A stretch of DNA of 64,000 bases from Clostridia bacterium. GTDB lineage: Bacteria > Bacillota > Clostridia > Christensenellales > CAG-917. Positions 134-44,750 of this stretch are shown here, one piece after another (the stretch's first letter is position 1; the number at the start of each line of letters is the position of its first letter). A program made the position numbers and the translations under genes. The stretch lies in NCBI GenBank assembly GCA_017461985.1, contig JAFTSA010000008.1:1-64000 (forward strand), written 5' to 3'. The notes beneath the pieces are model-generated. The model was given only the letters and a program-made list of their open reading frames with translations. It did no database searches and was not told where the DNA came from.

Positions 134-221
134 ATTGATTTTCTCCATAAATTCTTATTTATCGTTCAGTTTATTATAGCACAAAAATCGCATTTTTTCA
201 ATACACAAAGTCCACTGACGC

Positions 222-250
222 AAAAAAAAGACAAGCACTTGCTTGTCTTT
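222..250 (-). terminator. Rho-independent terminator beyond the duplicated tRNA end
   Basis: On the minus strand a 10-bp perfect stem (AAAGACAAGC with GCTTGTCTTT, loop of 4) is followed by a T run. It lies immediately after the copied tRNA-Leu 3' end at 249-263. It would be the original terminator if the intervening 300 bp are an insertion. Confidence 0.75.
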
Positions 251-263
251 GGTGCGGCCAGTG
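249..263 (-). repeat. Copy of tRNA-Leu(GAG) 3' end (direct repeat 2)
   Basis: Fifteen bases identical to 565-579, which is the acceptor 3' strand plus encoded CCA of tRNA-Leu(GAG). Spacing between the copies is 316 bp and the orientation is the same. Bases beyond the match (CAAGT, then an indel) still resemble the T-loop of the tRNA, so the similarity reaches further with small differences. No other half of a tRNA is present here. Confidence 0.85.
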
Positions 264-529
264 TGTACTTGTCTACGCACGTCTGCCTTTGCTATGCAAT
301 ACAACAAGTTGCGGTGCTATGCACCTTGGCAGACGGCTATGTCCACTTCGCACGCCCACCTCAAATACTTTGTGCTTGAGTGTGCTTTGCTTTATGGTGG
401 TGAACGGAGTGTCCGTAATAGCGTAGCGATTGAGTTTACTCAAAAAGCGAAGCGTCACGATACACGGCGCGTGAGTTTGTGCCGTAGGCACGTTGGGCAA
501 AGCCCAACACAAGCCTCACTTGGTCGCAT
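264..529 (-). repeat. Hairpin array downstream of tRNA-Leu(GAG)
   Basis: About 265 bp without a supportable gene, packed with short perfect inverted repeats. Examples are GTTGGGC-AAA-GCCCAAC at 492-508, GTGCC-GTA-GGCAC just before it, and further units with stems ACGGA, TTGAGT, GTCTGCC and GGTGC. Several hairpins are enclosed by outer complementary stretches, giving a multibranched structure if transcribed. Near the distal end it carries GCAACTTGTTGTAT (minus strand), also found in the array after ssrA. Open reading frames here lack ribosome sites and simply follow the repeats. Confidence 0.7.
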
Positions 530-556
530 AAAAAAAGCCAAGTCTATTGACTTGGT
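530..556 (-). terminator. Terminator directly after tRNA-Leu(GAG)
   Basis: Minus-strand stem CCAAGTC / GACTTGG with a 4-base loop followed by seven T. It begins about 10 bases after the encoded CCA. Together with the terminator at 222-250 it brackets the hairpin array. Confidence 0.8.
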
Positions 557-564
557 TCTTTTTC

Positions 565-579
565 TTGGTGCGGCCAGTG
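565..579 (-). repeat. tRNA-Leu(GAG) 3' end (direct repeat 1)
   Basis: This is the 3' strand of the acceptor stem plus CCA of the functional tRNA. It is identical over 15 bases to 249-263. It marks the gene-proximal boundary of the hairpin array and would correspond to the attachment side that keeps the tRNA intact. Confidence 0.85.
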
Positions 580-649
580 AGACTTGAACTCACACGGTCG
601 TCCCATACGCCCCTCAAACGTACGCGTCTGCCTATTCCGCCATGGCCGC
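566..649 (-). tRNA. tRNA-Leu (anticodon GAG)
   Basis: Reading the minus strand, the acceptor stem GCGGCCA pairs with TGGCCGC. The D-arm has the leucine-type GGCGGAATAGGCAGACGC, the anticodon stem TACGT/GCGTA holds loop TTGAGGG (anticodon GAG), and there is a long variable arm typical of class II tRNAs. The T-loop GTTCAAGTC is normal. Discriminator A and CCA are encoded. A consensus promoter lies just upstream at 663-691. Confidence 0.95.
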
Positions 650-662
650 ACATAGTGTCACT

Positions 663-691
663 ATTATATGATACTGAATTTTCAATGTCAA
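663..691 (-). promoter_or_regulatory. Promoter of tRNA-Leu(GAG)
   Basis: Minus strand TTGACA (686-691), a 17-bp spacer, then TATAAT (663-668), both perfect consensus. The -10 ends about 14 bases before the mature tRNA 5' end. A second TTGACA lies a little further upstream. Confidence 0.85.
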
Positions 692-29896: not shown

Positions 29897-29930
29897 ATAA
29901 AAAAACAACCCCACGATTTCGTAGGGTTGT
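29897..29930 (-). terminator. Distal terminator of the tRNA-Leu(CAA) array
   Basis: Minus-strand ACAACCC / GGGTTGT with an inner ACGA-TTTCGT pairing, followed by seven T. The sequence just before it on the minus strand contains CGAGTCC as in the tRNA T-arm. Confidence 0.8.
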
Positions 29931-29933
29931 GTT

Positions 29934-30137
29934 GGACTCGTAGTACAAAAATGCAACTCGAAAATCACGGCGAAGTCGTGGATGGAATCCGCAGCTTGTC
30001 TGCGGTATGGAATCAACACGGAGTGTTGTATGTAATCAATCCAAGGAGGATGCACGCTGGCGCGTGATGCCATGCGCCTTCGGCGATTACATACTCACCT
30101 GCGGTGAGATTACATGCCAATCCTTCGGGTTGGATAG
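29934..30137 (-). repeat. Hairpin array downstream of tRNA-Leu(CAA)
   Basis: About 200 bp of head-to-tail short stems (minus strand): TCACC/GGTGA, CGCC-GAA-GGCG, CACGC/GCGTG, ATCC/GGAT, AACAC/GTGTT, CCGCA/TGCGG and CACG/CGTG. They are joined by near-identical linkers ATGTAATC, GATTACATA and GATTCCAT. The linkers are themselves complementary (GTAATC with GATTAC), so the array can fold into a multibranched RNA. No gene is supported here. Confidence 0.75.
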
Positions 30138-30168
30138 AAAAAAGACCGTTCGAAAACGGTCTTTTTTT
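30138..30168. terminator. Terminator directly after tRNA-Leu(CAA)
   Basis: GACCGTT-CGAA-AACGGTC with A and T runs on both sides, three bases from the encoded CCA. Confidence 0.9.
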
Positions 30169-30170
30169 CT

Positions 30171-30258
30171 TGGTGCCGGTGGACGGACTCGAACCGTCAC
30201 GGAGGATTAGTCCACAGGATTTTGAGTCCAGCGCGTCTGCCAATTTCACCACACCGGC
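30171..30258 (-). tRNA. tRNA-Leu (anticodon CAA)
   Basis: Minus strand GCCGGTG pairs with CACCGGC in the acceptor stem. The D-arm GTGAAATTGGCAGACGC is leucine-type, the anticodon loop is CTCAAAA (anticodon CAA), there is a long variable arm, and the T-loop GTTCGAGTC is normal. The anticodon stem has one T-T mismatch at its second pair. Discriminator A and CCA are encoded. Confidence 0.92.
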
Positions 30259-44015: not shown

Positions 44016-44381
44016 GGGGGTGTACTGGATTCGACTACTGGTTGGAGTCGGGATAAGCATGTCGCAGGCTCGTCTGCGTTAAAACGGAAAGCTAAAATTA
44101 AATGCAAAAAACAATACTATGAAATCCACCAACATGGGTTTCGCCCTCGCTGCATAATTTAGTCAGCGTGTCGCCCCGAGGTTTTCTGTTCCCTTGGCAA
44201 GCGGTATCAGAAAAACAGACAACGCCAGCCTAGTGTCCTGTAAGTTGGTTGTCATGAAGGACTCATCAATCTGCGGTTCGCCCACGTACCAAAGTGCGAA
44301 AAATCTAAACGTGAGATAAACATGTAGAAAGTCGCGGTGAAGGCTTTTAGGACCGGGGTTCAACTCCCCGCATCTCCACCA
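44016..44381 (+). ncRNA. ssrA: tmRNA (ssrA), one-piece form
   Basis: The 5' GGGGGTGTACTGGATTCGAC and 3' GGTTCAACTCCCCGCATCTC with encoded CCA form the alanine tRNA-like domain. The tag frame runs from the resume codon GCA at 44104 to TAA at 44155-44157, giving AKNNTMKSTNMGFALAA, whose LAA end is the proteolysis signal. It rescues stalled ribosomes with SmpB, encoded about 15 kb away at 58937-59389. The 3' 21 bases plus AAAA are repeated 330 bp downstream. Confidence 0.97.
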
Positions 44382-44384
44382 AAA
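44361..44384 (+). repeat. tmRNA 3' end, direct repeat 1
   Basis: Twenty-four bases from the T-loop (CAACTCCCCG) to just past the CCA (CACCAAAA), identical to 44691-44714. Confidence 0.95.
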
Positions 44385-44690
44385 AGTAAGAAACACGAAC
44401 CCTTGGGTGCGTGTTTTTTGCTTTTTTGATACGGAAATAGTATGTTGCAGGGGAGTTGAACAGGAGCGTTAAGAAAATGGTGGACACCCACCATTTTTAG
44501 CAATGACCACAAAACAAAGGACAACCAAGCGCTTGTCATTTGAGTTGTCCGCGTGAAGTGGACGATACTGTCCACATAGTGCGAAGCACAGCAACTTGTT
44601 GTATCACGAAGTGAATGTGGGCAAGCAAGACCGAAGCATTGAGCAAGGCATACAACGATATAAGCACTCTTGCCTTGCGAAATGCAAGAA
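44385..44690 (+). repeat. Hairpin array downstream of ssrA
   Basis: About 305 bp without a gene. It starts with a terminator and contains an inverted copy of 12 bases of the tmRNA T-arm (44450-44461 versus 44358-44369). It also has a 10-bp perfect hairpin with a T run (44474-44497) and further stems GTGGAC/GTCCAC, GTGC-GAA-GCAC and TCAC-GAA-GTGA. Near its end GCAACTTGTTGTAT matches the array after tRNA-Leu(GAG), in a similar context of a GTGC-N3-GCAC hairpin before and a short stem after. Stems differ in sequence but keep pairing. Confidence 0.8.
44391..44419 (+). terminator. Terminator directly after ssrA
   Basis: AAACACG / CGTGTTT with an inner CCTTGG loop, then T run. Confidence 0.85.
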
Positions 44691-44714
44691 CAACTCCCCG
44701 CATCTCCACCAAAA
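44691..44714 (+). repeat. Copy of tmRNA 3' end, direct repeat 2
   Basis: Identical over 24 bases to 44361-44384, spacing exactly 330 bp. The tRNA-like 5' partner is missing, so this copy cannot be a functional RNA end by itself. Confidence 0.95.
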
Positions 44715-44719
44715 GGACA

Positions 44720-44750
44720 AAAAACCCACTCTTATGAGTGGGTTTTGTTT
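44720..44750 (+). terminator. Distal terminator of the ssrA array
   Basis: AAACCCACTC-TTAT-GAGTGGGTTT with flanking T run. It lies right after the copied tmRNA end and is also positioned to end the converging exporter gene on the minus strand. Confidence 0.9.

Follow-up and report, generated by a model that had tools for sequence, protein, structure and literature searches.

A tRNA-linked repeat unit carrying an unrelated hairpin insert behind tRNA-Leu(GAG) of a Clostridia bacterium

The tRNA-linked repeats (TLRs) of Escherichia coli, which include the 178-bp repeats of tyrT-tyrV (RtT/RttR, Rfam RF00391) and the units of proK, argQZYV and lysT, lie directly 3' of a tRNA gene and consist of an antisense T-arm segment, hairpins and a copy of the 3' end of that tRNA, with CCA. 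They occur in tandem arrays of 1-5, have been known since 1978 and have no accepted general function or origin (PMC8144298). Stenum et al. 2021 described three E. coli units located between dual rrn terminators (RrA, RrB and RrF) as sRNAs. Downstream of the gene, these have a first terminator, then a structured repeat whose end consists of the gene's last 18 bp, and finally a second terminator (PMC8144298). In tRNA and tmRNA genomic islands (Islander) a displaced 3' fragment lies downstream of the gene in the same orientation, with a boundary in the T-loop (PMC4383910). Among open-licence papers on repeats behind tRNA genes, those on E. coli TLRs were the only ones found. REP/BIME repeats, associated with the RAYT transposase, are extragenic palindromic hairpins that also form arrays.

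The window, that is, the whole stretch of 64,000 nucleotides analysed (contig JAFTSA010000008.1, positions 1 to 64,000), contains at positions 222-579 a TLR-type unit behind tRNA-Leu(GAG), into which an unrelated hairpin element (type C) has been inserted (table 1). The anatomy listed above for E. coli TLRs is found here as well, and a hairpin resembling an intrinsic terminator stands ahead of the unit, as it does at proK. The order from gene to second terminator is that of RrA, RrB and RrF; however, those units lie behind 5S rRNA and not behind tRNA or tmRNA, and their transcription has been shown in E. coli. The displaced 3' fragment and the T-loop boundary are shared with Islander islands, but the units of this genome are about 125-350 bp long, contain neither integrase nor cargo, possess antisense arms and form many tandem copies. 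Unlike REP/BIME repeats, they are bound to tRNA ends, and the genome is without Y1 transposase. In E. coli K-12, for which tyrT-tyrV, rrnB and ten tRNA operons were compared, the plan recurs in the units of tyrT, argQZYV, lysT and proK; copies there measure 18-19 nt, from T-loop base 58-59 onward, against 21 nt from C56 here. An antisense T-arm can be clearly recognised at tyrT, argQZYV and proK, and that of lysT is shorter. A preliminary description of this DNA had cited tyrT as a distant precedent, which is valid, although the word distant understates the likeness, since the E. coli units share the plan. Two further differences concern diversity and number: several interior types are present here and ssrA is included, and units occur at about 18 of 46 genes, compared with a reported 22 units, spread over ten loci, in E. 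coli. The Rfam RtT model (RF00391), which does match E. coli, gives no match at E<=5 in the array of the window and none at E<=1 in eight other loci. The units are thus best classed as TLRs by their anatomy and, by sequence, not as members of Rfam RtT, and what is new is the TLR plan known from E. coli in a much wider form.

Table 1. Features of the tRNA-Leu(GAG) and ssrA loci, in positions of the window
Feature	Position	Strand	Basis
Promoter-like TTGACA-17-TATAAT of tRNA-Leu(GAG)	663..691	-	12/12 consensus match
tRNA-Leu(GAG) gene, CCA encoded	566..649	-	ARAGORN; Rfam RF00005 49.2 bits
C56..A76 block of tRNA-Leu(GAG), the duplicated 21 nt	566..586	-	boundary statistics
First terminator T1, directly 3' of tRNA-Leu(GAG)	530..555	-	terminator-like hairpin
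Left arm L TGCGACCAAGTGAGGCTTG, antisense to tRNA-Leu T-arm 3' strand and acceptor	510..528	-	sequence, predicted folds
Two left-half hairpins TTGGGCTTTGCCCAA, GTGCCTACGGCAC	479..507	-	predicted folds
Antisense of T-arm 5' strand AAACTCAC	471..478	-	sequence
Type A core: GTGACGCTTCGC, TTGAGTAAACTCAA hairpin, CGCTATTACGG	396..478	-	model R1 match, 52.7 bits, E 1.6e-8
Type C secondary insert	271..399	-	model R3 match 125 bits; absent from Leu(gag) unit of same-genus G002
14-mer GCAACTTGTTGTAT within type C	299..312	-	exact match
Copy of tRNA-Leu 3' end CAAGTACACACTGGCCGCACCA	250..271	-	alignment to gene
Second terminator T2, past tRNA-Leu copy	221..250	-	terminator-like hairpin
Remnant of further left arm GCGTCAGTGGACTTTGTG	204..221	-	comparison with G002, third partial unit there
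ssrA (tmRNA gene)	44016..44381	+	ARAGORN; Rfam; duplicated block C56..A76 at 44361-44381
First terminator, ssrA array	44391..44420	+	terminator-like hairpin
Type B left arm and first part of core, ssrA array	44447..44508	+	model R2 matches
Type C insert, ssrA array	44505..44631	+	model R3 match 120.5 bits
Exact 21-nt copy of tmRNA 3' end	44691..44711	+	sequence identity
Second terminator, ssrA array	44721..44750	+	terminator-like hairpin

The copied tRNA-Leu 3' end, first noticed at a distance of 316 bp from the original, was recovered as a direct repeat with this spacing (558-579 and 242-263). The weak similarity said to continue into the T-loop is real but is actually a 21-nt block that starts at C56 and has three mismatches to the gene in its last 18 nt; the same imperfect copy, with the same mismatches, is present in a second species of the genus (G002). 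Both terminators named in the preliminary description are indeed represented by terminator-like hairpins, one after the gene (555-530) and one after the copy (250-221). Between the terminator of the tRNA and the copied end lies a 280-nt hairpin array, whose fold, predicted for DNA (z -3.8) or for RNA (z -3.2), is better than that of every one of 200 shuffles, and in predicted folds the left arm (510-528) pairs with the copy (250-271). The unit behind ssrA has the same plan with a different interior, type B instead of the type A of Leu(gag), so that the two inserts are not one element, as had been supposed. Just past the Leu array and before the next co-directional gene, there is a promoter-like TTGAAA-17-TATAAT on the minus strand (window 150-201).

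Described at first for two host genes, the arrangement is in fact genome-wide. When all 45 tRNA genes and ssrA were examined with their 3' flanks, about 18 of the 46 genes were found to have units, decayed copies and matches to the unit models (R1 and R2) included: Thr(cgt), Thr(ggt), Val(tac), Val(cac), Val(gac), Ala(cgc), Ala(ggc), Tyr, Trp, Ile, Arg(cct), Ser(gga), Ser(tga), Leu(taa), Leu(tag), Leu(cag), Leu(gag) and ssrA. At Thr(cgt) three exact copies follow one another with a period of 166 nt. A copy of the gene's own last 18 nt within 400 nt downstream, at <=3 mismatches, is present in 13 of the 44 genes with enough flank; since the control of this search has exact matches from tRNA clusters, reliance was placed on the upstream control and the own-versus-other comparison given below. 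The order within a unit is usually a terminator, then a left arm antisense to the T-arm 3' strand of its own tRNA, hairpins and the antisense of the T-arm 5' strand (GAACC...), after which come the sense T-arm 5' strand, a conserved interior that forms an insert in the T-loop, and the stretch from C56 to CCA. Type A interiors are made up of TGACGCTC, a variable hairpin, CRCTATTACG and CTA ahead of C56, and type B interiors of GAACAAAAGCGT...TTTTAGCGATGACCGAAG...GCAAGAA ahead of C56; further interior types are located at Leu(tag), Leu(cag), Leu(taa) and Val(gac). With model R1, built for type A, 23 sites are detected in the genome; the strong ones follow tRNA genes, occupy a displaced tRNA-Arg half or lie next to Ser-like copies where a contig begins. 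It also matches in 37 of 120 relatives, chiefly one family, plus the surrounding order. Arrays are borne by genera g1, g2, g4, g5 and g8, and R1 gave no match in g3, g6, g7, g9 and g10. Named records that contain the type A motif belong to gut Clostridia of rabbit and sheep.

Several sites stand apart from this pattern. Motif matches in viral contigs lie in coding sequence and are due to chance, and two contig matches (L116 and L122) were rejected as units because they are in coding sequence. At a contig start without a tRNA gene (L079, G000:C5:1-700), two units of type B and one of type A carry tRNA-Ser(gct)-like end copies; they were probably split from their tRNA gene by assembly. The remnant island behind tRNA-Arg(cct) (L080, G000:C8:41000-46500) contains an N-terminal fragment resembling an integrase, together with the 3' half of a tRNA that is displaced and has a type A insert in its T-loop.

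Two aspects of the copied block are informative. First, its limits are fixed on both sides. Downstream of 189 tRNA and tmRNA genes of related genomes there are 86 copies, mostly of 21 nt (up to three exact copies per locus), compared with none upstream and four matches on the opposite strand. The 5' limit of identity is exactly T-loop base C56 in 68 of the 86; it falls short in 17, as a result of mutation, and extends further in one. On the 3' side identity ends 0-3 nt past CCA in 56 copies and runs at least 9 nt into the terminator in 30 (at least 10 nt in 28 of these); the latter would be recent tandem duplicates, and the others fit founding events. No other single clue to the mechanism is as strong as this 21-nt block with its two fixed sides. 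Second, copies resemble their own gene: 83 of 90 lie nearer to it than to the corresponding tRNA end of any other species, and 66 are identical, whereas some old copies, such as that of Leu(gag), do not follow their gene. Because the loci of the relatives were collected either by the type A motif or as tRNA/tmRNA loci, these counts describe the collected loci and are not estimates of clade-wide frequencies.

Units are present behind many tRNA and tmRNA genes of related gut Clostridia, and between close relatives the arrays evidently gain, lose, swap and tandemly repeat units. Within one genus, Ala(cgc) is followed by B or by A-A, Ser(tga) by A or by A-B-A, and Val(gac) by A-F or by F-A-F, and Leu(cag) carries a near copy of the Leu(tag) unit. 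Behind ssrA of genus g8, an array is present in five genomes and absent in four, and a contig ends there in one more. Among these relatives, we did not find a clean empty site at which both flanks can be aligned. Growth at the tRNA-proximal end, in the manner of CRISPR arrays, was also considered and rejected, the distal copy being older in 8 cases versus 3 with 16 ties, which is not significant. The g8 ssrA arrays of G018 and G020 can be aligned and carry CAATTCCCCTCACC and CGACTCCCCTCACC, each matching its own gene. In G025 (L243) the copy reads TCACC and the gene GCACC, whereas in G018 and G020 the T is found in both gene and copy, and the tmRNA genes of these two (L244 and L248) have a compensating C-to-A change. 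It would fit these observations that the ssrA copy (TCACC) had written into the tmRNA gene in G018 and G020, although this is one case and other readings are possible.

Judging by the alignments, the stems of the arrays are maintained: local hairpins have 52 compensated double changes where about 4 are expected, as counted over unit pairs that are not independent of each other. The intermediates of such changes, expressed as G-T to A-C, are 52:49 in array hairpins, 51:66 in left-right long-range pairs and 26:14 in terminators. If an RNA of the sense strand were under selection, more G-T than A-C intermediates would be expected. Terminators lean that way, but neither array hairpins nor left-right pairs show such an excess, which we take as modest evidence that upkeep may take place at the DNA level; the contrast between terminators and array hairpins is suggestive only.

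The 21-nt block, considered together with upkeep at the DNA level, points to a staggered duplication with later tandem copying. The best model, which we hold with moderate confidence, is that of a module acting at the DNA level, which would duplicate the 21-bp tRNA end and be kept palindromic by DNA processes. At founding, the tRNA gene would be opened at two points 21 bp from each other, one between T55 and C56 and the other at CCA, and the outcome would be an intact tRNA with its last 21 bp duplicated beyond the insert, similar to a long target-site duplication. Further units would originate from tandem duplication, exchange between the direct repeats would keep the copy in step with the gene, and hairpin-templated correction would keep the stems perfect. 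The terminators are proposed to hold the array mostly silent, which could be why the tRNA tolerates it. The weakest point of the best model is that plain target duplication leaves the antisense left arm unexplained; fold-back synthesis at the palindromic T-arm would yield such an arm. As to the driver, the genome has no match to the Y1 transposase (PF01797) of IS200/IS605 and REP-RAYT elements or to the reverse transcriptase (PF00078) of retro-elements, and both were rejected in that role. Its sole tyrosine recombinase (L166, G000:C2:235547-236113, 356 aa) has a XerS-like size and is located between tRNA-Trp and a tRNA cluster; this Xer-like protein is also all that the genome offers of that family with regard to an integron, and among the three enzyme families no driver was found in the genome itself. 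Priming by tRNA at a PBS-like site was dropped because the antisense arm usually lacks a TGG complementary to CCA. It may tentatively be imagined, although we regard it as unlikely, that a recombination system makes cuts 21 bp apart in tRNA and tmRNA genes, at T55/C56 and at CCA, and by inserting hairpin cassettes copies whichever tRNA end it meets, with several families exchanged per tRNA and write-back into the gene; the E. coli TLRs would then be a relic with a step of 18-19 bp.

The units could instead be small-RNA genes that are read through T1, cut at the tRNA-like end and employed as a regulator or a protein sponge, comparable to RrA, RrB and RrF. This is a possibility to be taken seriously, although it is probably not the right one. 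On the one hand, the two-terminator layout is the same, with a terminator-like site after 63 of 83 copies, and RttR of E. coli, annotated as an ncRNA, covers a unit built in the same way. RrB arises from transcription that reads through T1, and in vitro it binds Hfq and CsrA (PMC8144298); here the structure beats all shuffles and the stems have compensated changes. On the other hand, G-T does not exceed A-C either in array hairpins or in long-range pairs, unrelated interior types replace one another at the same tRNA, many units are decayed or lost, and a regulator has no need to match its own tRNA.

An origin of the arrays as scars left by integrase-borne islands or satellites, with an attachment core extending from T-loop to CCA, of which the cargo was lost and the joined attachment-site arms remain, appears improbable. 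Tyrosine integrases do use tRNA and tmRNA genes, with the T-loop as a recognised crossover subsite (PMC4383910), and a remnant island with an integrase-like fragment does lie behind tRNA-Arg(cct) (C8:42.1-45.4 kb). However, the units are without an integrase gene, for which the Leu(gag) and ssrA units are too short in any case (221-566 and 44381-44750), and the only tyrosine recombinase of the genome is Xer-like. Moreover, the interiors are conserved tandem sets of hairpins rather than varied remnants, and the left arms are antisense to each local tRNA.

The preliminary description favoured one mobile family, marked by a 14-mer common to the Leu and ssrA arrays, which inserts at tRNA and tmRNA 3' ends and duplicates them. 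The shared 14-mer was verified, as was the GTGC-type hairpin before it (GGTGC-ATA-GCACC at Leu, GTGC-GAA-GCAC at ssrA), and GCAACTTGTTGTAT occurs only in these two arrays, at 299-312 (-) and 44591-44604 (+), with no third site in the 1.41 Mb assembly. The 14-mer belongs to type C, a separate element of about 127 nt, of which covariance model R3 identifies four full copies in the genome, behind Leu(gag), ssrA, Thr(ggt) and Pro(cgg), as well as copies within arrays of G002 and G017; the tRNA arrays with type C extend to another genus. Since all four full copies and the array matches lie there, a preference for tRNA and tmRNA 3' regions does hold for type C, but the copied ends come from elsewhere. 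In G002 the Leu(gag) unit (95% identity over the first 194 nt) has the same copied end and is missing the 14-mer block, and type C can therefore not be the source of these ends. Type C is missing from most units with copied ends, many of them exact, and its Pro(cgg) copy is without a tRNA-end copy in this genome, contrary to the expectation that the 14-mer element is always bounded by one. In comparison with uninterrupted units, GAC(C) is repeated at both ends of type C in ssrA, Thr(ggt) and the Tyr array of G017 (in ssrA the insert sits at TGACC with GACC duplicated, the boundary being taken from uninterrupted type B units). This apparent target duplication is GAC(C) and not the 21-nt tRNA end. 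A single family of this kind is very improbable, and as the source of the tRNA-end copies it is refuted; type C stands as a separate, hitch-hiking passenger.

That the arrays are an assembly artefact of metagenome contigs, which do often stop at arrays, can practically be dismissed, as the same arrays are found in independent assemblies of several genera and the complete E. coli K-12 chromosome shows the same plan. The arrays would rather explain short-read assembly breaks at tRNA genes in these bacteria. The TLR plan thus occurs in a distant phylum, behind more than one third of the tRNA genes plus ssrA, with fixed boundaries and gene-tracking copies, and owing to this wide spread, the fixed boundaries and the copies that track their own gene, origin and upkeep become testable by comparison of close relatives. 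Furthermore, sequence may pass between tRNA 3' ends and the copies downstream of them, and this would bear on the interpretation of tRNA and tmRNA evolution and of island boundaries.

Three additional observations concern neighbouring types of array. A different array of ATGTAATC/ATGGCATC-hairpin units (type D) is located after tRNA-Leu(caa) (30171-30258, minus strand) at window positions 29900-30170, and it also follows Val(gac), Val(tac), fMet, Cys and Glu(ctc); type D has no CCA copy and ends in weakly T-arm-like bases. Behind tRNA-Gly(gcc) (L016, G000:C2:130553-133624) two 43-bp tandem units, each ending in GACCCGCTCCA, form a miniature of the same theme. At tRNA-Lys(ttt) of relatives (L117, L118 and L120), the acceptor part contains hairpin inserts as well, both in the antisense arm and in the copy.
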